Both the position numbers and the translations under genes were made by a program. From Rufibacter ruber (GTDB lineage: Bacteria > Bacteroidota > Bacteroidia > Cytophagales > Hymenobacteraceae), in contig NZ_LRMM01000005.1 of assembly GCF_001647275.1 (NCBI RefSeq), forward strand, positions 1 to 64,000: DNA of 64,000 nt. Direction: 5' to 3'. Positions 41,818 to 62,306 of the stretch are shown here, piece after piece; positions within the stretch are counted from its first letter, which is position 1; each line of letters starts with the position of its first letter. The notes below the pieces were generated by a model. It did no database searches, was not told the origin of the DNA, and saw only the letters and a program-made list of their open reading frames with translations.

Positions 41818-41822
41818 GTCTA

Positions 41823-43427: not shown

Positions 43428-43466
43428 CTGTTTTCGGCCTGTTTTGTCGAAAACAGGCCGAAAACA
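43428..43466. repeat. Family A palindrome, copy 23 (near perfect)
   Basis: CTGTTTTCGGCCTGTTTT, loop gtc, GAAAACAGGCCGAAAACA. Paired GGCC and CGA/TCG; only the last base fails. Divergent gap. Confidence 0.88.
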
Positions 43467-43648
43467 TAACTGGCTTTCTTGAAACTTCTGCACCAATTTC
43501 CGCCTGGGCGGCAATAACCAAACCTCTTAAATTTCAGTACAGCTTACAGGAACTCAGGGGTTGGGAATTCAACCTACCGGGCAACTGCGGCGTTTTGGTA
43601 GGCATGGGTACTCACTTTCAGCGTATGAGAAAAGGTAAATGTTCTTGA

Positions 43649-43783
43649 ACCGCTCTTCCGGATTTAAAATCTGGAAGGAAATAACCGGAGATTTGTAATC
43701 CCCGTCTCTGCGCCATCCATCAGAAAAGCCGCGGATTGCAAATCCGCAGTTACCCAGGTTCGGGATTACAAATCCCGAACAGG
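43649..43783. repeat. Family C multi-hairpin element, copy 2
   Basis: About 135 bp with dyads CTTCC..GGAAG, GGAGATTTGTAATCCCC, GCGGATTGCAAATCCGC, and CGGGATTACAAATCCCG. Same order as 27744-27879. Confidence 0.78.
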
Positions 43784-43858
43784 AGGGGCAGCAGAGCAGT
43801 GTGGGAATAAAAGAGAGAATTCAGCAATGTCATTCTAATCGTTCCATGGTCTTTGCTG

Positions 43859-44016
43859 CACGCATTGCGTCCCCCTTTGAAGGGGGTAGGGGGATGACGA
43901 AGGCCGTTGAAGAACCGTCTGATTTGTATAAAATGAAAAAGAGGAAATGAATCTCGGGAATGCGAGACTCTGCACGAGTATTCATCCCGGGCCTTCAAAG
44001 GGGGACAGAATGCGTG
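43859..44016. mobile_element. Family D MITE-like element, copy 2 (opposite orientation)
   Basis: About 158 bp. CACGCATTGCGTCCCCCTTT on the left, AAAGGGGGACAGAATGCGTG on the right; interior GGGGGATGACGAAGGCC and CTCGGGAATGCGA. It is the reverse complement of 35841-36010 apart from small changes. Confidence 0.78.
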
Positions 44017-44035
44017 GAAATTCAGGAGTTCTCGT

Positions 44036-44043
44036 TATCTTTC
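44036..44043 (+). promoter_or_regulatory. Candidate -7 box of the OsmC gene
   Basis: TATCTTTC differs from TAnnTTTG at one position and lies 30 bp before the ATG at 44074. Confidence 0.4.
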
Positions 44044-44073
44044 ATCAAAACCAACCTAACAAATTTTAAAACT

Positions 44074-44511
44074 ATGGCAAATAACACAGGTACGGCGGTC
44101 TGGGAAGGCGGCCTCAAAGACGGCAAAGGCTCTCTCTCCACCCAAAGCGGCACCCTGGACGCGCGTTTCTCGTTCGGGTCACGGTTTGAGGAAGGCGCCA
44201 GCGGCACCAACCCCGAGGAACTCATTGGCGCGGCCCACGCCGGCTGCTTCTCCATGTTCCTGAGCGCGTTGCTGGAAGGCGCGGGCACGCCCGCCACTTC
44301 GGTGAAAACCGTGGCCAAAATCACGTTGGGCAAAGATGATACCGGCCCGTTCATCTCCAAGATCGCGCTGACGTGCGAGGCTGACGTGTCCGGCATCTCC
44401 AACGATGATTTCCAGCAACAGGCCCAGAAAGCCAAAGAGGGCTGCCCAATTTCCAGAGCGTTGGCCTCAGTGCCCGAGATCACGCTGCAGGCAACCCTGA
44501 AAGGTGCCTGA
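44074..44511 (+). CDS. OsmC-family peroxiredoxin
   Basis: A 145-residue thiol peroxidase of the OsmC/Ohr group that reduces organic hydroperoxides. The catalytic cysteine lies in AAHAGCFSMFLSALL and the resolving cysteine in KEGCPISRAL; GTNPEELIGAAHAGC is the family signature. The ATG at 44074 is chosen because earlier in-frame starts run into the MITE-like element. The PH-like gene follows after a promoter box of its own. Confidence 0.95.
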   Translation: MANNTGTAVWEGGLKDGKGSLSTQSGTLDARFSFGSRFEEGASGTNPEELIGAAHAGCFSMFLSALLEGAGTPATSVKTVAKITLGKDDTGPFISKIALTCEADVSGISNDDFQQQAQKAKEGCPISRALASVPEITLQATLKGA

Positions 44512-44543
44512 TCTTCGGCCTGAGGCCGATATCAAAATTTCAT

Positions 44544-44551
44544 TATCTTTG
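44544..44551 (+). promoter_or_regulatory. -7 promoter box of the PH-like membrane gene
   Basis: TATCTTTG is an exact TAnnTTTG match 18 bp before the ATG at 44569, a typical spacing for a short leader. Confidence 0.5.
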
Positions 44552-44568
44552 CCCAATAGATTGAATGC

Positions 44569-45063
44569 ATGAAATCATTGGCTAGAGTTGGGTTGCGCCC
44601 GTCGCGTGACCATAAAATCTCCTTCGGGGTGCAGTTGGCGCTGGTGCTGCTGTGGTTGGCGTACGGTACGTTTTTGATTATGACGGAGCCCGGCTCCTCT
44701 ACCAACGACCGTCACTTTATCCACTACATCTTTCTGGTGCTGGCCTTTTGTTACCTGCTGTTCATTCTGGCGCAGAACACGTCTCTGTTTGGGCAACAGT
44801 CTTACATTGAGATCACGCCCGCTTACGTGGTGGAGAAACGGGGCCATTTTAAGAGCAAAGTGGCTATTCCGCTGCAAGATGTCACAGACATCTCCCTGAA
44901 CAACACCCAGGCCCGCTTTGCCATGCGTGACGGCTCCCGCTGCCACGTTAACCTCAAACTGGTGAGCACCCGCAAAGGGCAGCGCGTTGTGCGGGAGAAG
45001 CTGCTGGTGGTGGCTGAGCGCCATGCCATTCCGGTAACCGACAGCTCTACGGCCAGAAGATAG
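44569..45063 (+). CDS. Two-helix membrane protein with PH-like domain
   Basis: A 164-residue protein: basic N-terminus, two transmembrane helices (about 22-40 and 52-68), then a soluble beta-rich part (about 75-150) with EITPAYVVEKRGHFKSKVAI and IPLQDVTDISLNN, a pattern seen in bacterial PH (YdbT/PF03703-like) domains. It could sit in the inner membrane with the PH part cytoplasmic. No enzymatic motif. Convergent with the peroxiredoxin gene and separated by a strong terminator. Confidence 0.75.
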   Translation: MKSLARVGLRPSRDHKISFGVQLALVLLWLAYGTFLIMTEPGSSTNDRHFIHYIFLVLAFCYLLFILAQNTSLFGQQSYIEITPAYVVEKRGHFKSKVAIPLQDVTDISLNNTQARFAMRDGSRCHVNLKLVSTRKGQRVVREKLLVVAERHAIPVTDSSTARR

Positions 45064-45067
45064 ATTC

Positions 45068-45107
45068 CTGTTTTGGGGGTATTTTCCTGAAAACAGGCCA
45101 AAAACAG
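45068..45107. repeat. Family A palindrome, copy 24
   Basis: CTGTTTTGGGGGTATTTTCC, TGAAAACAGGCCAAAAACAG. Directly adjoins the terminator hairpin that follows. Confidence 0.75.
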
Positions 45108-45143
45108 AAAGGCCCTTCTTGGCAGAAGGGCCTTTCTGTTTTT
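45100..45143. terminator. Bidirectional terminator between PH-like and peroxiredoxin genes
   Basis: A 15-bp perfect stem (45105-45119/45124-45138, core GGCCCTTCT/AGAAGGGCC) flanked by A-run and T-run (TTTTT 45139-45143). Confidence 0.93.
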
Positions 45144-45158
45144 ACCAAAATTGGCAGC

Positions 45159-45797
45159 TTAGTCCAGGTTTGGCTGGGGCGTCATGCGCAGGTAGGGCTT
45201 GATCACCACGTGGCCTTTCGGGAATTTAGATTCTACTTCTTCCTGTTTCACAGACGGCAGAATCACGCAGTCCTGGCCGTTTTCCCAGTTAGCCGGGGTG
45301 GCCACACTGTGGTTGGCAGTCAGTTGCAAGGAATCAATCACGCGCAGAATCTCAGCGAAGTTACGGCCGGTAGAGGCTGGGTACGTGAAGATGAGTTTCA
45401 CTTTTTTGTCTGGCCCAATAATGAACACGCTGCGCACGGTGAAGGTGTCACTGGCGTTGGGGTGAATCATGTCATACAGGTCAGAGACTTTGCGCTCCGG
45501 GTCTGCAATGATGGGGAAGTTCACGGTGGTGTTCTGGGTTTCGTTGATGTCCTGAATCCAGCCGTGGTGCGAGTCAATGGGGTCAACGCTCAAGGCGGCT
45601 ACTTTCACGCCTCTGCGGTCAAACTCGTCTTTGATTTTAGAAACGGCGCCCAGCTCAGTGGTACAAACCGGGGTATAGTCGCGCGGGTGCGAGAACAGGA
45701 CCGCCCAGCCATCGCCAATCCACTCATGGAAATGGATAGTGCCTTGTGAGGTTTCTGCGGTGAAATCTGGGGCAATGTCGCCTAATCTTAAAGCCAT
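45159..45797 (-). CDS. 1-Cys peroxiredoxin (Prx6 type)
   Basis: A 212-residue cytoplasmic peroxidase for hydroperoxides. The peroxidatic cysteine lies in HPRDYTPVCTTEL and there is no conserved resolving cysteine in the AhpC position. The C-terminal dimerisation part ends KPYLRMTPQPNLD. Length and SVDPIDSHHGWIQDI segment are those of the Prx6 subfamily. It converges on the OsmC/PH genes, giving a local peroxide-defence cluster on opposite strands. Confidence 0.95.
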   Translation of the reverse strand: MALRLGDIAPDFTAETSQGTIHFHEWIGDGWAVLFSHPRDYTPVCTTELGAVSKIKDEFDRRGVKVAALSVDPIDSHHGWIQDINETQNTTVNFPIIADPERKVSDLYDMIHPNASDTFTVRSVFIIGPDKKVKLIFTYPASTGRNFAEILRVIDSLQLTANHSVATPANWENGQDCVILPSVKQEEVESKFPKGHVVIKPYLRMTPQPNLD

Positions 45798-46195
45798 CGT
45801 TTTGTTCTTTATGCGGTGAATGGTTAACTGTCTTTTGTCTGCCCTCTGCCTGGCTCCATATACTTATAGCCAGCAACAGAGTTTTAGAATCTCTATAGAA
45901 GAAGTAGACAAAGAAAGACACCAATTATTGTAATTCCAACTGAAAGCTGAAATATTTGACGAGATGGCAAGAAAAGAATGGATTTTTAGTGAAGGTGACA
46001 GATGGTCCGGGAAAGGCTGTTTTGATGTTGATTTGAGGAAAGTAGGCTGGGAACGTAACTGGCGCAGACGCTCGCAGGTGCTGCGCACGCTACGAGGTCT
46101 TTTGAGAATTGCTGCTGGTTAATTGGTGATTGTTATTAGAGAGCGCTGGCGCGAGCTTGTAGCTCGTAACCACTTGTGCTGAGTCTCCAGATTCA

Positions 46196-46402
46196 CAGAG
46201 GACCGTTCAGCCATGCGTGGAACCTACCCCTCCGGGGAGGGGAATACCGGGAATGCGTGAGAGGCAAGGCGGTGCCTGGTCTCTACGAGTGGGGAAAACA
46301 GCCATGCGTGCGGGCGTATGCCATACACCCCTACATATGCAATGCGTGGACCTGCAGGTGTAAACATCCCCCTTCGCCCCCTTCAAAGGGGGAGTATCAG
46401 AT
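46196..46402. repeat. Family D-like fragments
   Basis: Pieces resembling family D ends: ATGCGTGGAACCTACCCCTC, GGGAATGCGTGAGAGG and CCCCCTTCAAAGGGGGAG. They are partial and rearranged. Confidence 0.5.
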
Positions 46403-46567
46403 AAAATAGTTTGAGGCTTTGCCTCAGGGAAGTTAGAAACTTCCCAACATGGATTGGTCCAAGCTGCAAGCTTGAACCAGCATCAGAATTGCGTGAGTAA
46501 TGTAGAATTGCATGAGAAAAGGGGAATAGCGTGGGGAACTTGAAGTAGAGGAAGCAAACCAAACTGA

Positions 46568-46605
46568 GTGACTGGCCTGTTTTCCGGAAAGTAGGCCAGA
46601 AACGG
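46568..46605. repeat. Family A palindrome, copy 25
   Basis: Core GGCCTGTTTTCCGGAAAGTA with GGCC and AGAAACGG. The left outer arm (GTGACT) is unlike the family. Confidence 0.65.
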
Positions 46606-46752
46606 AGCTGCCCGAAACGCAGCTACCCTTAAAACTCATTCCCAAACGTTGATGTGCGCAGCACGGGCCCGGCTCAGGCTAGCGGATCAGCAGCGGTGAC
46701 GTGCAGAGGCAGACAAACAAGTAAAGGCTGATCAGGAGAGGAACCAAAACCA

Positions 46753-46843
46753 GTCCTGGGGGTGAGCGCCTCTGTTAATACGGTGCCGCACCTGCGGCAA
46801 GGCCGGAGGGCCTAGTTTTAACAGCAGTGCTCACCGCCAGGAC
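46753..46843. ncRNA. Large imperfect hairpin, possible structured RNA
   Basis: Arms 46753-46778 and 46818-46843 pair at 22 of 26 positions (GTCCTGG/CCAGGAC, GGTGAGC/GCTCACC, CTGTTAA/TTAACAG), counting no wobble. The loop holds two perfect small hairpins, GCCGCA-cc-TGCGGC and GGCC-ggag-GGCC, making a three-way-junction-like shape. Strand and expression are unknown. It does not match RNase P, SRP, tmRNA or 6S signatures I know. It may also be a repeat element. Confidence 0.4.
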
Positions 46844-46896
46844 GGGGCCCCGCGGCCGTGAGCGCTTACCGGAAATGATGAAACAACTCAGTGAGT

Positions 46897-47079
46897 GAGG
46901 CACTGTCAACAGCGCTCCAGCCCAGGGAAACAGCAGACTACGCATTGCATCAGCAGCAGCTAGCCAAGGAAACAGCGGTTAACCATTCCAGCATCTGCAG
47001 CAGCGGCAAAAATGAAACATTTGCTCCATGGAGGCACTGCATCCAACTGCCCAGCAAAGGGAACAGCAGACTACGCATT
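46897..47079. repeat. Diverged direct repeats with core AACAGCAGACTACGCATT
   Basis: An 18-nt core is identical at 46929-46946 and 47062-47079 (133-bp offset), with related flanks GAGGCACTG and CCCAG. A third weaker unit GGAAACAGCGGTTAACCATT lies between. Origin unknown. Confidence 0.55.
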
Positions 47080-47200
47080 CCAACCCTACCTCAGTCACCG
47101 TCGCCAAAGCCAACGGAAAAACAACCGAAGCATTCCCTTAAAGCACTTGCGTCAGATTCTTCAACAAGCTAAGAAAAACTTGACAGGAATTGTATAAAAG

Positions 47201-47238
47201 CGTTTTCGGCCTGTTTTTTCATCAAACAGCGAAAACAG
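47201..47238. repeat. Family A palindrome, copy 26
   Basis: CGTTTTCGGCCTGTTTTTTC, ATCAAACAGCGAAAACAG. It lies 6 bp past the Rrf2 stop on the minus strand. Confidence 0.78.
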
Positions 47239-47244
47239 AAACTA

Positions 47245-47694
47245 TCAAATTTGGTTGGCTTCTTCCTCTATCATCAACGCCGTGACTTTAGAGAAATCTG
47301 CCAGATACGTGGTATCCAGAATTTCACAGGTGGCATCGCGCACGCGCTTCATGAGCAGCCTGATCTCACAGGTAGCCTCGTCTATGCATTCATCACACTT
47401 CTTATAATAAAGGTGACTCACGCAGTGCACCGGCGCCAGCGGCCCGTCAATCATCCGGATCACGTTGCCTACTGAGATCTGCGCCGGGTCTTTCACCAGC
47501 GTGTAGCCGCCGTTCTTGCCGCGGGTACTCTGCACCACCTGCTGCACCTTCAGGTCTACCAGAATGGCCTCCAGAAACTTACGCGGAATGCGCTCAGCGG
47601 CGGCAATCTCAGAGATGAGCACCAGACCGCGGTCATGCTGCTTCGCCAAATAAAGAAGTGCTTTGAGGGCGTACTTGGCCTTTTTTGAAATCAT
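47245..47694 (-). CDS. Rrf2-family transcriptional regulator
   Basis: A 149-residue winged-helix regulator. The N-terminal HTH (SKKAKYALKALLYLAK and RKFLEAILVDLK) and wing (RGKNGGYTL) fit Rrf2. A cysteine-rich segment (VHCVSHLYYKKCDECI, then TCEI) near residues 90-112 could bind an Fe-S cluster as in IscR/NsrR-type members, though the spacing is not identical. It starts 22 bp after the dnaA stop on the same strand, so dnaA-rrf2 is probably one transcript. Targets unknown. Confidence 0.9.
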   Translation of the reverse strand: MISKKAKYALKALLYLAKQHDRGLVLISEIAAAERIPRKFLEAILVDLKVQQVVQSTRGKNGGYTLVKDPAQISVGNVIRMIDGPLAPVHCVSHLYYKKCDECIDEATCEIRLLMKRVRDATCEILDTTYLADFSKVTALMIEEEANQI

Positions 47695-47716
47695 AGGGTT
47701 TAGAGAAAACGCGTTG

Positions 47717-49147
47717 TTAAACCGCCTTCACCTTGAACTTCTTCTGCAGCTCCTGAATAGAAGCCTTGAATTTCTTGTCGGTATCAATCAGGTCAGAGAC
47801 GGTCTGCACCGAGTGGATTACCGTAGAGTGGTCGCGGCCGCCAAAATGGTACCCAATGGACTTGAGCGAGTGGCTGGTGTATTCCTTCGCGAAGTACATA
47901 GCCACCTGGCGCGCCGTCACAATCTCTTTCTTACGGGTCTTGGCTTTGAGCGAATCCAGGCTTACCTGAAAGTACTCAGCCACGGTTTTCTGGATAAAAT
48001 CCAGGTTTACCTCAGTCTCTACATCTTCAATGATGTGTTTGAGTGCGGCTTTGGCCAGTTCCAGGTCAATCTCTTTGCGGTTCAAGGAGGACTGCGCTAT
48101 CAACGAAATCAACACCCCTTCCAGTTCCCGCACGTTGGTATCTACGCTGTAAGCCAGGTATTCAATCACGTTGTCCGGAATATGGATCCCGTCGCTCTGC
48201 ATCTTTTTCTGGATGATGGCCATGCGGGTTTCAAAGTCCGGGCTCTGCAAATCGGCCGTGAGGCCCCACTTGAAGCGGGACAACAGACGCTCCTCCAAGC
48301 CTTTCAGGTCACGGGGCGGACAGTCTGAGGTCATCACAATCTGCTTACCGCTCTGGTGCAGGTGGTTGAAGATATGGAAGAACATTTCCTGCGTCTTCTC
48401 TTTGCCGCTCAGGAACTGCACGTCATCAATGATGAGAATATCAACCAGCAGGTAGAAATTGGCGAAGTCCTGTACGCTGTTGGTCTTCAAAGATTCAATG
48501 AACTGGTTCACGAACTTCTCAGAAGACACGTACAGCACAAACTTGTCTGGATTGTTGCTCTTGATGTGGTTGCCAATGGCCTGCACCAGGTGCGTTTTGC
48601 CTAAGCCCACGCCACCGTACACCATTAACGGGTTGAAAGACGTGGTGCCCGGCTTATTCGCCACGGCGTAACCCGCAGAACGCGCCAGACGATTGCAGTC
48701 ACCTTCAATATAGTTCTCAAAGGTATAGCTCTGGTTCAGCTGCGAGTTGAAGAAGTGCCGGTCAATGGCTTTTGACTCAAACGGGTTCTTCAGGAATGAG
48801 CGCTCCGGGCTGTATGAATTGGCGACGGCCGCCGGTACTTTCTTGGTGGGGATGTTAACGGTCTGGGGTTTGCTGTGGTCGTTGCCCTGGTCTACAATGA
48901 TGGAGTATTCCAGGCGGCCTTCGCTGCCCAGTTCCTGAAACACGACTTTTTTCAGCAGGCCCACATAGTGTTCCTCCAGCCACTCATAGAAGAACTGGCT
49001 GGGCACTTGAATTGTCAATACGTTGCCGGCCAAAGACAAGGGCGTAATGGGCTCGAACCACGTCTTGTAGCTCTGCTCGCCAATATTGTCTTTGATAACC
49101 TGTAAACAGTTATGCCAGACGGTTGTACAGTCTTTTACCATTAACAT
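47717..49147 (-). CDS. dnaA: Chromosomal replication initiator DnaA
   Basis: Binds DnaA boxes and opens oriC. From ATG 49147 it has 476 residues, with GGAAGAAG just upstream as a possible Shine-Dalgarno; a TTG at 49159 gives 480, and an ATG at 49141 gives 474. Domain I is at about 1-75 (WFEPITPLSL), the AAA+ Walker A is GGVGLGKTH with Walker B ILIIDDVQFL, and domain IV has the box-binding signature GGRDHSTVIHS. No DnaA-box cluster is evident in the ~100 bp upstream, so oriC is probably elsewhere. Confidence 0.97.
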   Translation of the reverse strand: MLMVKDCTTVWHNCLQVIKDNIGEQSYKTWFEPITPLSLAGNVLTIQVPSQFFYEWLEEHYVGLLKKVVFQELGSEGRLEYSIIVDQGNDHSKPQTVNIPTKKVPAAVANSYSPERSFLKNPFESKAIDRHFFNSQLNQSYTFENYIEGDCNRLARSAGYAVANKPGTTSFNPLMVYGGVGLGKTHLVQAIGNHIKSNNPDKFVLYVSSEKFVNQFIESLKTNSVQDFANFYLLVDILIIDDVQFLSGKEKTQEMFFHIFNHLHQSGKQIVMTSDCPPRDLKGLEERLLSRFKWGLTADLQSPDFETRMAIIQKKMQSDGIHIPDNVIEYLAYSVDTNVRELEGVLISLIAQSSLNRKEIDLELAKAALKHIIEDVETEVNLDFIQKTVAEYFQVSLDSLKAKTRKKEIVTARQVAMYFAKEYTSHSLKSIGYHFGGRDHSTVIHSVQTVSDLIDTDKKFKASIQELQKKFKVKAV

Positions 49148-49237
49148 CGCTTCTTCCAATCCCGCTTTAATTTGAGTGTCGATTTTTTCAGGGGGTTACA
49201 AAAATGGAAAAAAAGTCTTGAGAAAAAAACTTGAACT

Positions 49238-50173
49238 TCACGAAATTCTGACACTGTCATTCAATGGCAGAACAGAGGCCGTGGTGGCCGTTTTTGTTTT
49301 GCTTTTTCTGTCAAAGGTAAAGTCAATGCGGCCCAGGTTGATGCCTGACCAACCCACTTGGTTCACCAGCGTCACGTGCCCGCTGGAATGGGCAATCTTC
49401 ACGGGCTCATCAAGGAAGGTATGGGTGTGGCCGCCAATGATCAGGTCAATGCCGCTCACCTGCTTGGCCAGCTTGCGGTCATCTATCTTGTCATACTCAT
49501 AGCTATATCCCAGGTGGGACAGGCAGATCACCAGGTCCACCTTTTCGTCCTGCTTAAGCGTCCTCACCATTTTTTCGGCGGTAGCCACAGGGTCTAAGTA
49601 CCTGGTGCCGCCAATGTTGTTATCGGCCACCAGCCCCTGCAACTGGATTCCCAACCCGAACACGCCTACGCGCACCCCGTCTTTCACAAATACCTTGTAC
49701 GGCTGAAATCTGCCTTTCAGAATAGTATTGGAGAAGTCATAGTTGGCTACAATAAACGGGAAGCCCGCGTGCGGAAGCTGCTTCTGCAGCCCTTCCAGCC
49801 CATTGTCAAAGTCATGGTTGCCCAGCGTGGCGGCATCATAGCCCATCTGGGTCATGAGCTTGTACTCCAGCTCGCCCCCAAAAAAGTTGAAATACGGCGT
49901 GCCCTGCCAGATATCACCGGCGTCTAGCAGCAGTACGTTGGGTTCCTGCGCCCTGATCTGCTTCACCAGCGTGGCACGCCTGGCCATACCGCCCAACCCG
50001 CCGTGCTTGCGGCCGTCATTGGGGAACGGCTCAATGCGGGAGTGCATGTCATTGGTGTGCAGAATGGTCAGTTTGATGGAGGACCTGGCCGCACTGGCCA
50101 AACCTGGCAAGCCCAGCACCGCCAGCCCAGCCGTTCCGGCTATGGTATTCTTTATAAACTCTCTGCGTTTCAT
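49238..50173 (-). CDS. 5'-nucleotidase/metallophosphoesterase half (UshA N-terminal-like), Tat-exported
   Basis: A 311-residue calcineurin-like phosphoesterase. It has a twin-arginine type signal (MKRREFIKNTIAGTAG) and metal-binding motifs LTILHTNDMHSR, LLDAGDIWQG, LGNHDFD and IGGHTHTF. It lacks the substrate-binding C-terminal domain of UshA; that domain is encoded by the gene just upstream on the same strand. The pair probably forms a periplasmic nucleotidase or nucleotide pyrophosphatase that salvages phosphate and nucleosides; the specificity is not known. Confidence 0.93.
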   Translation of the reverse strand: MKRREFIKNTIAGTAGLAVLGLPGLASAARSSIKLTILHTNDMHSRIEPFPNDGRKHGGLGGMARRATLVKQIRAQEPNVLLLDAGDIWQGTPYFNFFGGELEYKLMTQMGYDAATLGNHDFDNGLEGLQKQLPHAGFPFIVANYDFSNTILKGRFQPYKVFVKDGVRVGVFGLGIQLQGLVADNNIGGTRYLDPVATAEKMVRTLKQDEKVDLVICLSHLGYSYEYDKIDDRKLAKQVSGIDLIIGGHTHTFLDEPVKIAHSSGHVTLVNQVGWSGINLGRIDFTFDRKSKTKTATTASVLPLNDSVRIS

Positions 50174-50180
50174 GGTTTTG

Positions 50181-50255
50181 GTATCATGTATCGCGTATCA
50201 ATATCAAGACAAGAGCCTATTGGAGTCTTGCTACTTGATACCTGCTACCTGATAC
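50181..50255. repeat. Inverted repeat between the two nucleotidase genes
   Basis: GTATCA..CGCGTATCAATATCAAGAC (50181-50211) and GTCTTG..TTGATACC..GATAC (50225-50255) form a long imperfect dyad. It fills the gap and reaches the stop codon of the C-domain gene. Similar GTATCA-rich palindromes are common in this phylum. Confidence 0.55.
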
Positions 50256-51028: not shown

Positions 51029-51090
51029 GAAAAAAAACGGTTTCTCAAAGGTACGCCCCTGCCCGTTAAAAACCCAAAGCCGGGGCTATG

Positions 51091-51130
51091 CTGTTTTTGA
51101 GCTGTTTTTCTGAAAACAGCTCAAAAACAG
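51091..51130. repeat. Family A palindrome, copy 27 (perfect)
   Basis: CTGTTTTTGAGCTGTTTT tct-loop with AAAACAGCTCAAAAACAG. Both arms changed from GGCC to GAGC/GCTC together. Divergent gap. Confidence 0.9.
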
Positions 51131-51164
51131 TGCCTGTCTTTTCTTTAAAGAATAAGATAAAAGC

Positions 51165-51195
51165 TTGACAATTAATTACTTTTTCTATAAACTTG
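51165..51195 (+). promoter_or_regulatory. Candidate promoter upstream of small ORFs
   Basis: TTGACA at 51165-51170 and TATAAACTTG at 51186-51195. It resembles both a sigma70-like pair and the Bacteroidota TTG/TAnnTTTG pattern (TAAACTTG, one mismatch). It would give a transcript entering 51200-51921. Confidence 0.4.
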
Positions 51196-51248
51196 TCTCC
51201 ATCAGGTAGCTGGCCCGCCACCTGGTAGTCACCCTTTCAGCACCCGCT

Positions 51249-51921: not shown

Positions 51922-51959
51922 CATAGCACCCTTTGGGGAACATTTCTAATAAAAGCAGA

Positions 51960-52001
51960 AGCGTTTTTAGCCTGTTTTTCTGAAAACAGGTCAGAAACGC
52001 T
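51960..52001. repeat. Family A palindrome, copy 28
   Basis: AGCGTTTTTAGCCTGTTTTT, CTGAAAACAGGTCAGAAACGCT. Tandem gap. Confidence 0.85.
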
Positions 52002-53145: not shown

Positions 53146-53185
53146 CTGTTTTTGGCCTACTTTCAGGAAAACAGGTCAAAAACAG
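53146..53185. repeat. Family A palindrome, copy 29
   Basis: CTGTTTTTGGCCTACTTTCA, GGAAAACAGGTCAAAAACAG. Convergent gap after ctlX. Confidence 0.8.
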
Positions 53186-53189
53186 AGAA

Positions 53190-53656: not shown

Positions 53657-56014
53657 TCAATTCTTACTGAATTCTTTAATGCGTACGTGAGGGCTCAGTA
53701 CTTTATTTACTTTCTGGACAATAATACTTTTAGGCAGCGTGAAGGAGGCGGTTTGTTTAATGTTCTGGGACGAGGCTCCTACCTTGACCTGGTAAAGTCC
53801 TGCGTCAGCTACCCAGGCAGAGGTATTTACATCAAAAGAGGCCAACGCGTGGGCATCTAAGGTAAACATCAAGGATTGGGTTTCCCCCGGCTGTAGCAGC
53901 CTGGTTTTAGCAAAGCCTTTTAATTCTTTCAGCGGCTTCTCCATGGTCTTGGCAGGAGCACTTATATATACTTGCACTACCTCTCTCCCCGCCACGTTAC
54001 CAGTGTTTGTCACCTCTAAGGTAACAGTAACTTTATCTTTAAAAGTACCAGAGCCAAGTTTCAAGTTCTTGTAACCAAAGGTTGTATATGACAGACCATA
54101 CCCGAACTCATAAGCAGGATCAACCTTGAAAGAATCAAAGTACCTATACCCCACATAGACACCTTCTTCATACACCACCTGCTTAGGCTCACCCGCAGGG
54201 GTACCCGGAAAATTCTTAGAGGAAGGGCTATCTTGGTAATCTTTTGGGAAGGTGGTGGCCAATTTACCAGATGGATTGACTTTTCCGGAGATTAAATCTG
54301 CAAGTGCATTTCCTCCCTCCTGCCCTGGCTGCCACGCCAACAGGATAGCGTCTGCCATGCCGCGCCAGCTCGCTACTTCTATCACGCCTCCTATGTTCAA
54401 AATCACTACCACCTTCTTTCCCTGCGCATGAAACGAGTCAGACACGGTTTTCAACAAGCTTCTCTCCTCTGCAGTTAGATAATAATCGTTGGCCAGCTTT
54501 CGGTCACCGCCTTCCCCAAAAACCCGCATGATGGTAATTACGGCCAGATCTGCCTCTTTGGCTTTTAGGTGAATCAGGGATTCATCAATGGCCATTTCAC
54601 CTAAGATGCTATCCAACTTAGGTAAAGCCGTAATGAGGCTGTCAGCTTTCAGATTTTGGGGCCTTCCTCTGGTCAGGTATGCTTGATACCGCTCTTTCAG
54701 CCCTTTGTCTAACTGGTAGCCAGCATTCTCCAAACCCTGCACCAGTGAAACACCATATTTGTTATTGACCATGCCACTGCCCGTGCCACCTACTATCAAC
54801 TTGTAAGAGTAATTTCCAAACGCCGCTATTTTTTTGTCAGTCTCTGACAAAGGAAGGGCTTTGCTATCATTCTTCAGCAGCACCATTGACTGGGCGGCTG
54901 CCTCCCGTGCTAACCGGGCATTTGCAACAAGGTTGGGTTTTTCTGAATATGGGTAATTCTTAAAGGTAGGAGTCTTAAGGGCTACCTGTAGAATTCTGCT
55001 GATGTTCTGGTCAACCAAACTAACCTCCAAGCTCCTGTGCCTGACAGCACTGTCAATCTTGTTGGACCATACTGCCAACCCCGGCATGAGCAAATCATTG
55101 CCTGCTTTCATTTGCTTTACCGCATCTTCGCCCCCGTACCAGTCACTTAACACAAAGCCATCAAAGCCCCACTCCTCCCGCAGTATTGTCTCCAGCAGTT
55201 CTTTACTCTCTGAAGTGTACACCCCGTTTATCTTGTTATAAGAGGACATTACGGTCCAAGGCTTTGCCTCGCGCACCGCTATCTCAAAGCCTTTCAGGTA
55301 GATCTCCCGCAAAGCACGCTCACTTACAACGGTATTGATAAAGCGCCTGCTGGTTTCCTGGTTGTTGGCCGCGAAGTGTTTAAGACAGGCGCCTACTCCC
55401 TGTGACTGTATTCCCTGCACGGCGGCAGCGGCCATTTTGCCTGAAACCAGCGGGTCTTCAGAATAATATTCAAAACTCCGTCCGCCCAGCGGGTCACGGT
55501 GAAGGTTCAAGGCCGGGCCGAGCAGAATATCTACACCATACTCCAGCGCCTCATGCCCCATTCCCCGGCCTACCTGTTCGGCAAGCTGTACATCCCAGCT
55601 GGAAGCCACCAGGGTAGCAACAGGAAAAGCGGTGCAGTAGTAGGTATTGGGATCATTCTCTCTCCGGGGTGCAATACGCAACCCCGCCGGGCCATCTGAA
55701 AGATAAATGGCCGGTATCCCTAACCGGACAAACGGATACGTATAGCCACCTACTGCGGTAATGTTCTTTTGCTTTCGGCCCAGGGTGGCCACCGGCACCA
55801 CCTCCCGCCGCTTTGCGCCTGTCACCATCAGTGATTTCTCTTCAAGGGTCATGGCCTTGAGCACCTCCGCTATAGGGTCGCGCCCAAGTTGTGGAGGCAA
55901 GGGAGAGGCTGGTGCACCTCCAGCTGGCACTGACGCTGACTGAGCCTGTACCAGACCGAAAACCATAAATTGAAGCGCTAGGCAAGATAGAATATAGGAT
56001 CTTCTGATTTTCAT
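53657..56014 (-). CDS. Secreted GH3 beta-glucosidase of a polysaccharide-utilization operon
   Basis: A 785-residue periplasmic or outer-membrane glycosidase; from ATG 56014 it has a signal peptide ending in VQAQ. GH3 N-terminal barrel with LGPALNLHRDPLGGRSFEYY, KHFAANNQE, nucleophile Asp in FVLSDWYGGE, GH3 C-terminal domain (about 380-600), and a fibronectin type III-like domain at the end (VTLEVTNTGNVAGREVVQVY in part). Most like beta-glucosidases rather than NagZ. Third gene after susC and susD, so it probably trims imported beta-glucoside oligosaccharides. The longer frame to 56086 lacks a proper signal and is rejected. Confidence 0.93.
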   Translation of the reverse strand: MKIRRSYILSCLALQFMVFGLVQAQSASVPAGGAPASPLPPQLGRDPIAEVLKAMTLEEKSLMVTGAKRREVVPVATLGRKQKNITAVGGYTYPFVRLGIPAIYLSDGPAGLRIAPRRENDPNTYYCTAFPVATLVASSWDVQLAEQVGRGMGHEALEYGVDILLGPALNLHRDPLGGRSFEYYSEDPLVSGKMAAAAVQGIQSQGVGACLKHFAANNQETSRRFINTVVSERALREIYLKGFEIAVREAKPWTVMSSYNKINGVYTSESKELLETILREEWGFDGFVLSDWYGGEDAVKQMKAGNDLLMPGLAVWSNKIDSAVRHRSLEVSLVDQNISRILQVALKTPTFKNYPYSEKPNLVANARLAREAAAQSMVLLKNDSKALPLSETDKKIAAFGNYSYKLIVGGTGSGMVNNKYGVSLVQGLENAGYQLDKGLKERYQAYLTRGRPQNLKADSLITALPKLDSILGEMAIDESLIHLKAKEADLAVITIMRVFGEGGDRKLANDYYLTAEERSLLKTVSDSFHAQGKKVVVILNIGGVIEVASWRGMADAILLAWQPGQEGGNALADLISGKVNPSGKLATTFPKDYQDSPSSKNFPGTPAGEPKQVVYEEGVYVGYRYFDSFKVDPAYEFGYGLSYTTFGYKNLKLGSGTFKDKVTVTLEVTNTGNVAGREVVQVYISAPAKTMEKPLKELKGFAKTRLLQPGETQSLMFTLDAHALASFDVNTSAWVADAGLYQVKVGASSQNIKQTASFTLPKSIIVQKVNKVLSPHVRIKEFSKN

Positions 56015-56207
56015 CTGATAGTATGCCAATAGTAATTTGAGTTGGAGAATATGCCGCACATGAATGCTTGGCCCCATGCACTTCACTAACTAGCCAGCAA
56101 AGTACCGGCTACCGGCCATTTGCCTGGCTAGCTACTTTTGATTGCAATTGTATGTGGTAAAGCCTTCCTTCTAAACCACCACTGACAGAGGAAAAACCAG
56201 AATTCTT

Positions 56208-56257
56208 CAGATCCTGTTTCTGCTGTGTGCAAGCAAACGACGCAGAAACAGGATCTG
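56208..56257. repeat. 16-bp perfect inverted repeat between susD and the GH3 gene
   Basis: CAGATCCTGTTTCTGC (56208-56223) and GCAGAAACAGGATCTG (56242-56257) with an 18-nt loop. No T-run on the minus strand. It may stabilise or attenuate the operon mRNA. Not a family A element. Confidence 0.7.
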
Positions 56258-56458
56258 ATTTAGGGCTCACGGCACTTAAAAGTTCCCAATTATGAGCATA
56301 TTTAAAACTTGTCTTTGTACTGTAATGGCCGTATCCAGAACCAACCATCCCGCTTTTATCACTCTGCAGCGCTGCTATGAGGCTCAATAACTGCCATAGA
56401 AAACGCTAGGGCTGATACGTTTCACTACAATTTCAACTTTTCAGAATGCTCTTAGCCT

Positions 56459-57886
56459 CTAGTAGCCGGGGTTTTGGATTAGCTTAGGATTGATCTCTAT
56501 CTCCCTTCTGGGAATTGGCAGAATCAACTCATGGTCAGCCACTGAAAAGTTCAAGCCTTTGGCCTGATAGAAGGCATTGATCACTTCCCTGGCTTTTCCA
56601 GTTCGCACCAGATCAAACCACCGGTGTGCTTCATACGCCAACTCCACCCTTCTTTCATGCTGAATGGCAGCTCTGGCTTCTTCCTGTGTAAGATCTTCTA
56701 AACCGTCAAGGCTAGCGCGCGCACGAACCCTGTTCAGGTACAGAAGTGCATCATCTGTTTGGCCTTGTTCATTCAACGCCTCAGCGTACATTAATAAAAC
56801 ATCAGCGTAGCGTAACACCGTAAAATTAATGCTGCCATCTCTGGGGTTCACGGCGGTGAAATCAACAAATTTGAGACCATGCCGGCTATAGAATCTTTCG
56901 CCCGTAAGATTTGATGTAATGTATTCGCCTACAGAGACTTCCTTTCTAAGGTCACCATCTTCATATGCTTCTACTAAGCTAAGGGTAGGGGTTATTCTGC
57001 CAGAGCCCTGCTGTCCGTTGGCTAGCAGACCTGTAGTGGCAGGGGTAAACTGGATAGAATAGCTATTACCCAGGTTGGCGCCAGATATAAATTTCAGCTC
57101 GAAGATAGATTCTGCCAAATTCTCATTTCCGTTGGTAAACAGGCTGGTATAATTTGTAACCAAAGAATACTGGTTTGACTCTATTACCTCCCAAAGTTTT
57201 GTTTCGGCTAGTTGAAACTGCCTTTGGGTCAGGTACACTTTTCCTAACAGTGTTTTTACGGTTCCTCTGGATGCATATCCTTTATTAGGATTAAGGGTAG
57301 CGGGCAATAGCGTTTCTGCCGCGGTCAGGTCTTCTATGATTTTCGCATACACCGCCTCTTTGGGCTTCAAACTTAAATCTGCAGACGCCACCTGGTCCGG
57401 GCTTCTAAATTCAGCATCGGTTATGGGTACGTTCCCAAAGGTTTGCACCAGGATGAAATAACTATACGCCCGCATGAATTTCGCCTCACCCATTAGCCGG
57501 TCTTTTACTTGGGCGTCAATGTCTGCCTCAGGCAGCCTGTTTATGATGATGTTGCAGCGGGCTACCGTGTACAGAGAAGTACTCCAGATGGATTGCAAAA
57601 TGGTGTTGGCAGGGGTCACATTCAGTTCATCAAACTCAACCTCTGTAATGGAAGAAGAGGAGATGGAAATCTCTGCGTTGTCTGACATCAACTCTGCTAC
57701 ATAGAAGAGATTAGTGTTGTACATTTCCTTAAAGGTACCGTACACCCCAATCATAGCTTTCTCAAAGTCATTCTTGGTTTTATAAAAGTTCTGTTCATTG
57801 ATCTGAGACTCCGGCTGCAACTCCAAAAAGCTGTCACAGGCAGTAGCCATGCCCAAAAACAGGCAAATACATATTATCTTTTTCAT
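56459..57886 (-). CDS. SusD/RagB-family lipoprotein (second locus)
   Basis: A 475-residue surface glycan-binding lipoprotein from ATG 57886, with lipobox ATAC. The N-terminus DSFLELQPESQINEQNFYKT and the C-terminal HERRVELAYEAHRWFDLVRTG (in part) with IPRREIEINP are textbook SusD/RagB features. The longer frame overlaps susC and is rejected. It begins 16 bp after the SusC stop and precedes the GH3 beta-glucosidase, forming a minimal PUL. Confidence 0.95.
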   Translation of the reverse strand: MKKIICICLFLGMATACDSFLELQPESQINEQNFYKTKNDFEKAMIGVYGTFKEMYNTNLFYVAELMSDNAEISISSSSITEVEFDELNVTPANTILQSIWSTSLYTVARCNIIINRLPEADIDAQVKDRLMGEAKFMRAYSYFILVQTFGNVPITDAEFRSPDQVASADLSLKPKEAVYAKIIEDLTAAETLLPATLNPNKGYASRGTVKTLLGKVYLTQRQFQLAETKLWEVIESNQYSLVTNYTSLFTNGNENLAESIFELKFISGANLGNSYSIQFTPATTGLLANGQQGSGRITPTLSLVEAYEDGDLRKEVSVGEYITSNLTGERFYSRHGLKFVDFTAVNPRDGSINFTVLRYADVLLMYAEALNEQGQTDDALLYLNRVRARASLDGLEDLTQEEARAAIQHERRVELAYEAHRWFDLVRTGKAREVINAFYQAKGLNFSVADHELILPIPRREIEINPKLIQNPGY

Positions 57887-57902
57887 GGCTCTTAATAATT
57901 GG

Positions 57903-60900
57903 TTATTGAAGGGAGATTCTAACACCCATGGTAAACACCCTGGAAACTGGGTAAGAGAAATAGTCAATGCCCGTAGCAGCGATATTATCACCGGTAGAGC
58001 TGGCTTCAGGGTCATAGCCTGGATAATCAGTGAACGTGTAGGCATTGGCTACGTCTGCAAATACCGTAAGGCCTGGCACATGTAACGCCCTTAGCAGACT
58101 GGCGGGAAGGTTGTAAGAAAGGTTAATGTTCTTTATTCTCACAAAAGAACCATCAAACAAGTATCTGGAGTTTGAACTTATGCCTCTGGCGTGGTCGCTT
58201 CTGATAGCTCTGGGTATTACGCCGTTCCCGGGGTTATCCTCAGATCTCCAGCGGTCTGCCACCATGGCCAGCTGATTCTGTACACCAGCACCATTTAAAA
58301 CAATCTCGCCTCCCTGAAAATATACTTCATTCCCCTGGGAGCCAACAATCACTGTACTGAAGGTTAATCCTTTATAAGAAAATCTATTAGTAACACCAAA
58401 CGTATAGTCTGGCCAGGGGCTCCCTACAAAAGTTTTATCAGCGTCTGTAATGACCTTGTCACCGTTCACATCTTCAAATTTCAGGTCCCCTGGCTTTACG
58501 TTAGGGTGCTGCTTAGGGCTGGCGTCTACTTCCGCCTGGTTCCTGAATACCCCAATGGCCTTTAGCATGAAAAAGCTAGAGATGGGGTGGCCTACTTCTG
58601 TTACCTGGTACGCGGAGTTAGGGATACGGGAATTAGCAGAGTTTAGCGCCAACACCTCGTTTCTGTTCATGCTAATATTAAAGCTGGTGTTCCAGGTGAA
58701 GTCTGTGCTTTTGATCACATCTACCCCTAGGGCTATCTCCAGGCCTTTGTTCTCCAACTCACCCACGTTCTGGATAGAAGACTCAAAGCCCGAGGCCGCT
58801 GGCAGCAACGTATTCAGCAACAGGTCTTTTTTATGGTTTCGGTAGGCATCAACAGACAAGGTGATTCTATTATTAAACAGAGCCAGATCTACCCCTATGT
58901 TGGTTTGAAGCGAACGCTCCCAGGTAAGGTCATCGTTGGCCAAGCCCTGGGGTACTACGCCTAAAACAGGTTGCCCGTTCGCCACATATCTAGAAATACC
59001 CAACAACCCAATATGCGCGTAATTCCCAATCAGGTTGTTCCCAGAGACCCCGTAGCTGGCCCTGAGCTTTAGGTCATCAATAAAAGCCAGGTCTGACATG
59101 AAAGGCTCTTCAGAGACTCTGTAACCCAAAGAGAAAGACGGAAAGGTTCCCCACCGCTCATTGACCCCAAAACGGGAACTACCGTCTCGTCTTACCGTTG
59201 CCGTAAATAAATATCTGTCATTGTAAGTATAGCTTACCCTTGCCAGCCAGGAAAGCATTGCCCATTCTGATACATAGTTGGTGCCCGCATTCACATTGCC
59301 CCCGGCCAGATACTGTATATAATCAGTAGGGAAGTCTGTTGCCCCTGCCTGAAACATCTCTAGCGCATCTTTCTGCACGGTGAAACCCGCTACAGCATTG
59401 ATACTGTGCTTCTCATTGAACACCCTCTTAAAACTAACGGTGTTCTCATTAAGCCAGTTTAGGTTGGTACGGTTATGGACGCCCGCAGTAGCCGGACTTG
59501 TTTTACTCCCCCACTCTCCTATCTCAGAAGATTTCCAGAGTCTTGTTTTGTCTACTATGTAATTGATCCCAATAGAGGTGCGGGCGGTAAGTCCTTCCAA
59601 CAATTCAAACTCCAGGTAATTGTTGGTAAAAACGTTAGTAGACTGGCGCTTGTCTCTAAACTCATCTAAAATAAGGAGAGGGTTTTCAACGGGTACACCC
59701 AGCGGGTCTAACAGTTCAGAGGTGTAGTCCCCATTCTCTTCATAGACGGGCAATGCCGGAGAACTAGCCAGCGCCGCCGAGATTAGCCCCCTCTGCCCTA
59801 AGTGCCCTTCGGCACGGGCGAAATCACCGTAAGAATGTGAGCCCGCCACTGAAACACCTAACCTTACCCGTTTATTTAAATCAACATCTATGTTGCTGCG
59901 CAGGTTGAACTTCTTGAAGTTAGACCCTTCTATGATCCCCTCCTGGTCCAAATAGCCAGCCCCAACATAATAGGTAGAATTGTTAGCACCACCGCTGGCA
60001 GATAGTTGGTAATTTTGAATGGAGGCCGGCCGGAAGATCACATCCTGCCAATCTGTGTGCACATTAAGCGCTCCCGGATTCCTGAATTCTGGCTTTACCC
60101 TTGTACCACCTGACCGCACAGGGTTTGGGTCAGAAGCGCTACCACCAGCATACACCCAGGCATTGTCACGTCCTTCTGCTACAAACTCAGCAAACTGGCC
60201 GGCATCTAATACGTCTAATTTGTTGGCTATGGTTTGAATTCCGCCAGAAGCCTCCAGATTGATACTTGCTTTGCCTTGTTTCCCTCTTTTAGTAGTAATA
60301 ATAACCACCCCGTTAGCCCCTCTTGAGCCGTAAATGGCAGTGGCAGAAGCATCTTTCAAGATCTCTATAGACTCAATATCTGCGGGGTTAATGCTGCTTA
60401 GGGGGTTTATTTTGCTAGCTGTATTGTTGGCCATCCCGCTCGAAGAAAAGGAGTTCCCATTGAAACTACTCACGTCTGACCCACCGCCCCCGGAACCGAT
60501 GGCATACCCGTCAATAACGTATAAGGGTTGGTTACCGCCCGTAATGGAACTGATCCCCCTAATTACAATATTGACATTTCCGCCGGGGGCGCCGGTGGTC
60601 TGGGTAATCTGGGCACCAGCCACTTTGCCCTGCATCAACTGGTCAAAGCTGGCAGCTGGCGTGGGAATCAGTTCAGTGGCAGAAAGGCTTACCACAGAAC
60701 CGGTGAGGTCTTTTTTCTGCTGTGTACCGTACCCTACCACCACTACCTCATTTAGTAGTTTTTGGTCTGACTGCAAGGCAATATCCACTTCTGCTTTGTT
60801 CCCAACAGGCACTTCTATGGTGGTAAACCCAATATAACTGACCACCAGAGTAGCGTTAGACGCTACTGTCAGGTTGAACTGCCCGTTCACGTCAGTTGCC

Positions 60901-61091
60901 GTACCGTTTGTAGTCCCTTTCTCTACCACAGAAACCCCAACCAGAGGCGCACTATTGACAGCTTCAGTTATCCTGCCTTTGACTGTAAGTGTTTTTGCCG
61001 TTTGCGCCGCTACAGCATTCATACTTGCCAATAGCCACAGCATACTCCATATCACCGCTGGAGATAGCCGATTACGTAAAATGTGTCTCAT
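57903..61091 (-). CDS. SusC/RagA-family TonB-linked transporter (second locus)
   Basis: A 1062-residue TonB-dependent outer-membrane transporter. Signal peptide ending in AVAAQ, regulatory-like beta-sandwich VKGRITEAVNSAPLVGVSV, the plug with EVVVVGYGTQQKKDLTGSV and GVVIITTKRGKQG, then a large barrel ending FTMGVRISLQ. First gene of susC-susD-GH3. Less A+T-rich than the first SusC, closer to the genome average. The gene upstream is 1.2 kb away on the same strand, so the promoter is in 61092-61400. No ECF sigma or hybrid two-component regulator is adjacent. Confidence 0.95.
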   Translation of the reverse strand: MRHILRNRLSPAVIWSMLWLLASMNAVAAQTAKTLTVKGRITEAVNSAPLVGVSVVEKGTTNGTATDVNGQFNLTVASNATLVVSYIGFTTIEVPVGNKAEVDIALQSDQKLLNEVVVVGYGTQQKKDLTGSVVSLSATELIPTPAASFDQLMQGKVAGAQITQTTGAPGGNVNIVIRGISSITGGNQPLYVIDGYAIGSGGGGSDVSSFNGNSFSSSGMANNTASKINPLSSINPADIESIEILKDASATAIYGSRGANGVVIITTKRGKQGKASINLEASGGIQTIANKLDVLDAGQFAEFVAEGRDNAWVYAGGSASDPNPVRSGGTRVKPEFRNPGALNVHTDWQDVIFRPASIQNYQLSASGGANNSTYYVGAGYLDQEGIIEGSNFKKFNLRSNIDVDLNKRVRLGVSVAGSHSYGDFARAEGHLGQRGLISAALASSPALPVYEENGDYTSELLDPLGVPVENPLLILDEFRDKRQSTNVFTNNYLEFELLEGLTARTSIGINYIVDKTRLWKSSEIGEWGSKTSPATAGVHNRTNLNWLNENTVSFKRVFNEKHSINAVAGFTVQKDALEMFQAGATDFPTDYIQYLAGGNVNAGTNYVSEWAMLSWLARVSYTYNDRYLFTATVRRDGSSRFGVNERWGTFPSFSLGYRVSEEPFMSDLAFIDDLKLRASYGVSGNNLIGNYAHIGLLGISRYVANGQPVLGVVPQGLANDDLTWERSLQTNIGVDLALFNNRITLSVDAYRNHKKDLLLNTLLPAASGFESSIQNVGELENKGLEIALGVDVIKSTDFTWNTSFNISMNRNEVLALNSANSRIPNSAYQVTEVGHPISSFFMLKAIGVFRNQAEVDASPKQHPNVKPGDLKFEDVNGDKVITDADKTFVGSPWPDYTFGVTNRFSYKGLTFSTVIVGSQGNEVYFQGGEIVLNGAGVQNQLAMVADRWRSEDNPGNGVIPRAIRSDHARGISSNSRYLFDGSFVRIKNINLSYNLPASLLRALHVPGLTVFADVANAYTFTDYPGYDPEASSTGDNIAATGIDYFSYPVSRVFTMGVRISLQ

Positions 61092-62306
61092 TATATATAG
61101 GATTTAGTTTATTAAATACAACATTCACGGCCTGCATCCTCTAAAGCGCCCAAATGGGCAAGTGATATTTGTTTAGATGCCGACAACATAAGCACTCCTA
61201 TGCCTTACATGCGTGCGTCTCTGCCGTTCGTTCTCACTTCACAGCTCAAGCAATGGGCTTCTGTACTTTCAATCCCCTCTTCTGTCTTATTTTCTATTAA
61301 GCAGGTACTTTAACATAAAGTTAAATTCTTAACGCACTAACTTTATTCCGCTGTAAAGTATATTCATATTTTAAAAAAAACAACCATTTGGTGATAAATC
61401 TTAAATAAGCGAGACACTTAACCCACAATGATTGAGGAAATTTAATTCACATCCTCTCAATCATAATATCATCAAAAGCATACAACAACGCTTAGAGCAC
61501 TAAGAAAATGAACTTTTGAAAACAAATATTCGGTAATCAAGTTCAAGAACTTTTGAGGGGAGGCAGGCAGTACAACCTGTTTTGTGGTCTGCCTTTACCA
61601 GTACAAGTAGAGTGGGAGAAACAGGTATTCTTCTGAAGCCAGAAGAGATAGAAGGGTTTTGGTAGTTTTCCTTGTCCCTCCCTTAAAACGGCCACCTTTG
61701 TAGCCACTTGCCATGAGAAAGCAAGTACCTAATTAGCCTTTATAACTGGAAACTCAGCAAAAGAAAATAGATAAAGGGCAGGTTCCTGGCTAAGAGCTTG
61801 TTTACATTTTGTTTTAGCAAGCGAAAACGGGGAGCGAAAGGTTCTTCTATAGCGTTTTTTGAGCAACATACGCCCCGCTATGGTGCGAGTCAACCGCGAA
61901 GTCAGGTTCTTTTGATACCCGTTTGCAGTTCAAATGACAAATTAAACATGCTCTAAGAAGAATATAACCTTTATCCTTTTGGCTATCATCACAGCACATC
62001 TTTAAATAGTCCCCTTCTTTCAGATAATTAGCCCACCTGCTCCTTAAAAAGCATTCATTCCCGGTAAACCCATTCATTTTCCTCTAACAAAAAGAAAATG
62101 CATGGGCCATTTAAATGGTTGCTTACTTATTGGAATGCATTTAACCTGGACTTGGGGGAAGATGGTGTACTCCTAATTTCTAGAGTAGGCTGTAAAGGCA
62201 CCGTGCCAAGTAGCCCCAGTGTAAGTCCAGAGCTGTTTTAGGCCTGTTTTTCTAAAAACAGGCCTAAAACAGACATGCTGGTCCGGCCCCAGCCCAAAAA
62301 CACACC
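61092..62306. other. A+T-rich intergenic region upstream of the second susC
   Basis: About 1.2 kb. The first ~450 bp are A+T-rich and should hold the PUL promoter. The remainder has short frames only (one of 76 codons near 61847-62077, minus strand, unsupported). A family A palindrome lies near the right end. I see no operator that I can name. Confidence 0.5.
62233..62272. repeat. Family A palindrome, copy 30 (perfect)
   Basis: CTGTTTTAGGCCTGTTTT, loop, AAAACAGGCCTAAAACAG; arms fully complementary, with TAGGCC/GGCCTA variant. Lies 35 bp past the DUF72 stop. Confidence 0.92.

Follow-up and report, generated by a model that had tools for sequence, protein, structure and literature searches.

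Dispersed palindromes whose arms differ from copy to copy and still match each other raise the question of what keeps the two arms in step. A repeat of this kind, here called family A, occurs in a stretch of 64,000 nucleotides from Rufibacter ruber (contig NZ_LRMM01000005.1, positions 1 to 64,000), the whole of which is referred to as the window. A sequence-only reading of this DNA had proposed that the arms vary but change together, so that pairing or two-fold symmetry, not just recent copying, would matter. Are these arms selected to pair as a hairpin in RNA or DNA, or do they match for another reason?

Family A is a symmetric intergenic element of nearly fixed length

Family A consists of two-fold-symmetric DNA elements that are scattered between genes across the whole genus and vary little in length. 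Their layout is GTTT-N9-TTT-loop-AAA-N9-AAAC, with a core length of 36 in 662 of 772 copies. By nhmmer, using a profile made from the window copies and a threshold of E <= 1e-3, there are 30 copies in the 64 kb (counted from the listing), and the genome's own profile finds 29; no Rfam 15 family matches within the window at its gathering score. The copies are given below, with gap types and gene positions, here and throughout, taken from our own simple gene caller.

8–34, unstranded, family A palindrome (partial match), near the window edge
2176–2214, unstranded, family A palindrome, divergent gap
5375–5413, unstranded, family A palindrome
5602–5641, unstranded, family A palindrome
7188–7227, unstranded, family A palindrome, 5 nt after a stop codon
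7801–7839, unstranded, family A palindrome, 12 nt after a ParE-like gene
8506–8543, unstranded, family A palindrome
9207–9246, unstranded, family A palindrome, overlaps the called start of an acyltransferase ORF
15906–15944, unstranded, family A palindrome
25147–25183, unstranded, family A palindrome, convergent gap
26069–26105, unstranded, family A palindrome
26931–26969, unstranded, family A palindrome
27652–27691, unstranded, family A palindrome
28029–28068, unstranded, family A palindrome
29882–29920, unstranded, family A palindrome
31008–31046, unstranded, family A palindrome, between lon and the next gene; several relatives are similar there
35768–35805, unstranded, family A palindrome, convergent gap, about 20 nt after an OmpA-family gene
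36881–36920, unstranded, family A palindrome
40132–40171, unstranded, family A palindrome, 16 nt upstream of the dxr start codon; several relatives have one there
40383–40421, unstranded, family A palindrome
41780–41818, unstranded, family A palindrome, 5 nt after a GH3-like gene
43428–43466, unstranded, family A palindrome, divergent gap between a GH3-like and an OsmC-like gene
45068–45107, unstranded, family A palindrome, convergent gap; the terminator stem 45100–45143 takes its outer left arm from the last eight bases
46573–46605, unstranded, family A palindrome (partial match)
47201–47238, unstranded, family A palindrome (decayed), after the gene beside dnaA
51091–51130, unstranded, family A palindrome, divergent gap by gene calls
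51962–51999, unstranded, family A palindrome
53146–53185, unstranded, family A palindrome, convergent gap
62233–62272, unstranded, family A palindrome, 35 nt past the stop of a DUF72 gene on the minus strand
63093–63132, unstranded, family A palindrome, divergent gap

Inspection of the sequence confirmed both quoted arms at 43428 (CGGCCTG/CAGGCCG), 51091 (GAGCTG/CAGCTC) and 62233 (AGGCCT/AGGCCT); the outermost pair of the 43428 copy is a mismatch, C against T (AAAACAT). The outer arms CGTTTT/AAAACG reported at 35767 are present as well, but the left inner arm of this copy is two bases short (CGCTG versus CAGGCCG). By our gene calls, the 43428 and 51091 copies lie in divergent gaps, that at 35767 lies in a convergent gap and the fourth, 62233, follows a stop codon. 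The site after the gene beside dnaA bears a 17–23 bp hairpin in 6 of 15 relatives; in two species (G060 and G037), a shifted hairpin made from the inner part of the element, together with a T-run, replaces the hairpin of the other species.

Copies are dense and practically confined to Rufibacter

In eleven data sets of 200–384 kb from ten genomes, profile searches found 0.31–0.52 copies per kb, corresponding to about one element per 2–3 kb, between genes. Reversed sequence gave zero profile matches in all eleven sets, including the reversed 384 kb of the genome that contains the window (G000). With 201 copies in these 384 kb, simple extrapolation would place about 2,900 copies in the whole genome of 5.5 Mb. 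The profile threshold was 0.001 for densities and dialects in one set and a looser 0.01 for the ortholog comparisons. The middle of the consensus is species-specific, reading, for instance, CGGGCTCA in G051 and AGGGGCTC in G048. At the copy upstream of dxr (40132–40171), at least seven relatives have TAATTT(C/T)G at the centre, unlike their dialects, and to judge from its sequence this copy may perhaps have a leader function.

The exact pattern of the window recurs in G000 and 12 of 15 other members of the genus and in 0 of 184 other genomes of the same taxonomic family. A covariance model gave 65–105 matches, among the best 105 scored, in each of 14 genus members, and one or two matches in 2 of 46 non-genus genomes of the family; because of this cap, the matches do not serve as genome-wide copy numbers. 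Among the genomes of the taxonomic family that were searched, the element is thus practically limited to Rufibacter. Among named genomes, dxr is closest to that of Rufibacter latericius (90%). De novo hairpin searches at 11 of 80 named loci (about 21 kb each) gave 0 to 4 intergenic hairpins per locus, those from outside Rufibacter being unrelated in sequence; as the test also missed the decayed copies of R. latericius, its outcome carries little weight. We found no earlier description of this element family in the open-licence literature.

In five data sets, copies occupy 65–93% of convergent, 33–60% of tandem and 29–67% of divergent gaps, and tandem copies lie closer to the upstream stop than under random placement; in G000, 35% of tandem copies fall within 30 nt of the upstream stop, as compared with 15% at random. 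We also considered DNA uptake sequences, which occur as inverted pairs and whose single half-sites are spread through genes. This identity was rejected: lone half-sites of family A number 3/263, 0/72, 0/89 and 1/65, none of them in genes. Species dialects are a feature shared with the uptake sequences of the Neisseriaceae (DUS; PMC3630211).

Several further repeats lie in or near the window. The segments 27825–27879 and 43728–43782 (GGATTGCAAATCC and GGGATTACAAATCC) are 89% alike, and 35892–36017 and 43853–43980 form an inverted repeat pair about 8 kb apart (69 nt at 93% and 44 nt at 86%). A dispersed repeat, TTGTCATTCTGAAAGAATCT, with a partner ending in GAATGACA or similar, is found at 5780, 5849, 7850, 7937, 28166, 28207, 40249 and 40319. 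About 4 kb past the end of the window, G000:C112:68181-68354 gives a weak Y1-transposase match in a RAYT-like open frame of 209 aa (25.5 bits).

Joint variation of the arms is true but small

When the 3' letters of the 27 aligned window copies were shuffled, the number of cells changed on both sides dropped from 29 to 18.1, and 5 of 500 shuffles reached the observed value. The proportion of paired cells (81.9% versus 80.4%; 25/500 shuffles as high) and the covariation score (0.150 versus 0.123; 11/500) were also slightly elevated, and the true hairpin structure outscored all six slid versions. Of the both-sided changes, ten affected the outer C/T pair, seven the N pair (between TTTT and GG), five a flank pair and four the C/G pair; three further pairs had one each. 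No excess was seen among these copies in the number of pairs with both-sided change (7 versus 7.4 shuffled; 384/500) or in further pair types (20 versus 20.4; 334/500).

A similar pattern emerged from larger samples. Among 193 copies from 384 kb of G000, 2 of 17 column pairs exceeded z = 4 (5.9 and 7.8; the outer and the N pair), five of the 17 not being scorable because one of their columns never varies, and the 12 top-ranking column pairs comprised one paired and 11 unpaired combinations. Per data set, for all eleven sets, z = 4 was exceeded by 0 to 2 pairs, 0 to 2 of the 12 top column pairs were paired ones, and complementarity surpassed the column expectation by 0.4 to 3.6 points. In the 772 of 998 copies that had the required GTTT..AAAC core, the flanks beyond the core were complementary above shuffle for about 7 nt, mainly in the 166 copies with near-perfect cores. 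Both-sided changes thus exceed the shuffled level, but the effect is small and family-wide covariation weak.

Old copies retain their T-blocks while the middle drifts

To follow single copies through time, we compared orthologous gaps in three sister species pairs over 200 kb around dxr, which represents one part of the chromosome. Both genomes were occupied in 126 of the 176 gaps that had a copy in either. After filtering for gap length (94 of 105 single-copy pairs used), the two copies aligned to each other in 91 of 94 cases. Among 46 one-sided gaps, 39 aligned without a large gap, 2 partly and 5 not at all, in species pairs that are distant; at least 60% identity was reached in 31 of the 39 (our own count). 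Since both the copies and the one-sided gaps align in place, we conclude that the copies are old and vertically inherited, which bears out the contention that recent copying is not the whole story.

In two of the three species pairs, the conservation of the element as a whole hardly exceeds that of the surrounding gap (identities of 0.776 versus 0.767, 0.843 versus 0.691 and 0.746 versus 0.704), and fourfold degenerate sites are 59–70% identical in these pairs. Within the element, conservation is uneven. Counting a position as kept if the consensus letter of one genome is retained in the other, 94.8% of the T-block positions (GTTT, TT and their complements; 1113/1174) were kept in 128 element pairs, each counted once, as against 77.5% of the GGNCTGT middle (779/1005). 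The retention of T-blocks and middle was 0.961 and 0.783 in tandem, 0.942 and 0.785 in convergent and 0.918 and 0.734 in divergent gaps, and the 5' and 3' arms were conserved alike (p=0.32). When changes were polarised by an outgroup (72 elements from two overlapping species trios), T-blocks were retained at 528/553 = 0.955, T/A runs elsewhere in the same gaps at 0.892 (p=1e-6), other gap positions at 0.846 and the middle at 0.777, although T-block values may be inflated, as the profiles were trained on T-blocks and aligners favour T runs. The constraint therefore concerns sequence blocks, is symmetric and does not depend on transcription context. A symmetric, strand-independent sequence constraint of this kind is expected of a DNA site bound by a protein with matching symmetry.

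Compensatory change in place was detected against this background. In 96 of 105 single-copy pairs (filtered for length and identity), we counted 45 double Watson-Crick changes, with about 11 expected if the two sides were independent, versus 395 single-sided changes. By position-wise shuffling, in-place double changes amounted to 69 versus 41 over all copies, 19 versus 11 in strong-stem copies and 50 versus 35 in the others. The 22 of 105 pairs in which at least one species has a strong stem contributed 70 of the 109 double changes (counted from both sides), and the five pairs that are strong in both species showed 30 double and 11 single changes.

Mismatch orientation sets apart a terminator-like minority

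Selection on an RNA hairpin should leave more G.U than A.C mismatches when these are read on the transcribed strand. Ordinary terminators outside family A behave in this way (G.T 158 versus A.C 82 in 540 terminators). The same is true of those tandem copies of family A that are followed by a T-tract, defined as at least 5 T in 8 nt (64 of 551, or about one in nine; 52:22, p=0.0006). Tandem copies without a T-tract show no such bias, neither overall (329:337 in 487 copies) nor within 30 nt of a stop codon (131:137), and the difference between the two classes is significant (p=0.0008). The bias of the T-tract copies is not a mere effect of T-rich ends, because it persists in the inner 15 pairs alone (45:19), because the commonest mismatch sets a U of the 5' arm against a G of the 3' arm, and because 24 individual copies are richer in G.T and 7 in A.C (p=0.003). 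Near-perfect copies are also commoner in the T-tract class (47%) than outside it (15%). An earlier count from five data sets gave 153:139 for tandem, 61:58 for convergent and 41:40 for divergent copies; divergent copies, counted without orientation by transcription, gave 83:111.

A terminator minority thus stands apart from a DNA-symmetric majority by its G.U bias. The 64 tandem copies share with intrinsic terminators the T-tract, the more frequent near-perfect stems and the G.U bias. The other 487 of the 551 lack the U-tract that defines intrinsic terminators, and family A further differs from such terminators in that it fills divergent gaps and has its T-blocks inside the stem rather than behind it. 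The proposal that pairing or two-fold symmetry matters consequently holds for symmetry, whereas most copies keep the sequence of the T/A blocks and not pairing; where pairing itself is concerned, it holds best for the terminator-like minority. Some pairing signal nevertheless persists outside the terminator class, namely in the outer and N pairs, the flanks and the 50 versus 35 double changes.

We draw no conclusion from the adjacency of family A to ordinary terminators. Copies lie 0–10 nt behind 93 and before 49 of the 540 terminators, but their T-rich ends help such calls to pass; in a stricter test, a separate hairpin was present within 12 nt on 3.5% of sides, compared with 1.1% at control places. 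One neighbouring terminator is instructive in its own right. In the convergent gap 45064–45158, the stem 45100–45143 (AAAAACAG..CTGTTTTT) uses the end of a family A copy as its outer left arm. It measures 15–33 bp in 16/16 genus genomes, and several of its pairs occur in three to four Watson-Crick types and are compensatory; its loop reads TTGC in 8/16 species and the reverse complement GCAA in two (G006 and G051), without loss of the stem. Here compensatory evolution is genuine, but it belongs to a terminator and not to family A as a whole.

Discussion

On balance, we favour the view that family A is a two-fold-symmetric DNA element, putatively read by a protein, whose palindromy stems mostly from copying and a minority of whose copies serve as intrinsic terminators with selected pairing. 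Its conserved blocks would be where a symmetric, dimeric DNA-binding protein recognises or bends the DNA. Each lineage may have multiplied its elements as palindromes, which would explain both the matching arms and the species dialects; after multiplication, the middle would drift and the T-blocks would be kept. The co-varying arms would then represent mostly inherited variation plus weak compensation in place, with strong base-pair compensation being concentrated in those copies that were presumably taken over as intrinsic terminators. The protein, the multiplication and any chromosome-level role are what we infer here. Against this explanation stand the low conservation of the whole element relative to its gap in two of three species pairs, the pairing signal outside the terminator class and the possible inflation of the T-block values; moreover, no recent insertion was seen in the compared gaps.

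Mobility offers a different account of the dialects. REP/BIME sequences with RAYT are short, palindromic, intergenic, often situated after genes, high in copy number and lineage-specific, and family A resembles them in all these respects. It differs from them in having no consistent flanking of RAYT-like genes, in being symmetric at both ends and in having T-blocks selected in place; the REP foot GT[AG]G is absent from its consensus, the profile consensuses starting with TGTTTT, CGTTT or CCGTTTT. Dispersed palindromic repeats that equally lack a terminal tag are known as untagged REP-like families; the accessible part of PMC3733652 names organisms other than Rufibacter and makes no mention of T-block conservation. 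A REP-like palindrome spread by RAYT/TnpA_REP or another enzyme and then left to neutral decay would fit the many intergenic copies with their species dialects. In addition, Y1-transposase matches (PF01797) occur in 15/16 genus genomes, and at least five of the Y1 proteins have both the NHLH and the YIHQNP motif, like subclass 2.6 in the accessible part of PMC6006769. We nonetheless consider this scenario unlikely. A PF01797 search of 16 genomes yielded 30 loci at varying distances from family A, with no consistent tie (by eye), and 7 of these 30 had no copy in about 3.2 kb (again by eye). In four loci, the hairpin found within 160 nt is of a GGATT..AATCC type, G017 has no Y1 match and yet 0.41–0.43 copies per kb, and none of the 46 one-sided gaps contained, by eye, an empty place with intact flanks. 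Moreover, neutral decay does not conserve T-blocks in place. Besides the repeat at 27825–27879 and 43728–43782, GGATT..AATCC hairpins also occur near some RAYT-like genes (L120, L128, L129 and L146), and for this reason that repeat, rather than family A, may be RAYT's own.

Less probable still is the notion that all copies are selected RNA (or DNA) hairpins with compensating arms, acting, for example, as 3'-end stabilisers or terminators. Such a role would be consistent with the preferential filling of convergent gaps, the proximity of tandem copies to stop codons, the share of double changes contributed by strong-stem ortholog pairs, the complementary flanks and the deep conservation of the neighbouring convergent terminator, with its up to four Watson-Crick types per pair. 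However, divergent gaps are also filled, copies without a T-tract show no G.U bias even close to stop codons, the stem's middle changes more rapidly than other gap positions, and single changes far exceed double ones. For most copies, the selected-hairpin reading is therefore largely refuted.

Arms may also be kept alike without any selection on pairing, if template switching within the hairpin copies one arm onto the other, a mechanism described in the accessible part of PMC8794818. It would produce an excess of in-place double changes, and the inverted loop of the 45100–45143 stem is what it would leave behind. This explanation appears rather doubtful for family A, given that no exact loop inversion was found in the 70 usable of 91 family ortholog pairs, that loops are nearer to themselves than to their own reverse complement (28:8, with 34 ties) and that single-sided changes dominate. 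Gene conversion or recombination, which would homogenise the copies and import arm changes as blocks, is very improbable: although each species has its own consensus middle at sites shared with its sister, imported blocks should link unpaired columns, which are rarely linked (1/613 above G=30 in G000 and 0 in the other ten sets, an argument qualified by the 11 of 12 top column pairs in G000 that are unpaired), and flanks outside the core are complementary above shuffle.

Returning to the protein-read DNA element, it is tempting to speculate that a T-block site recurring every 2–3 kb could be read by a putative dimeric protein, which would structure the chromosome or insulate transcription units, with the middle free to drift and the palindrome repeatedly recruited into terminators; we offer this extension tentatively, as a possibility rather than an expectation. 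More generally, arms that match and co-vary across a dispersed palindrome do not on their own point to selection for an RNA hairpin, and orienting mismatches by transcription separates the RNA-selected T-tract minority from the DNA-symmetric copies. Family A also points to a chromosomal site that is dense and specific to the genus; an oligonucleotide could serve as direct bait for the protein that would read it.
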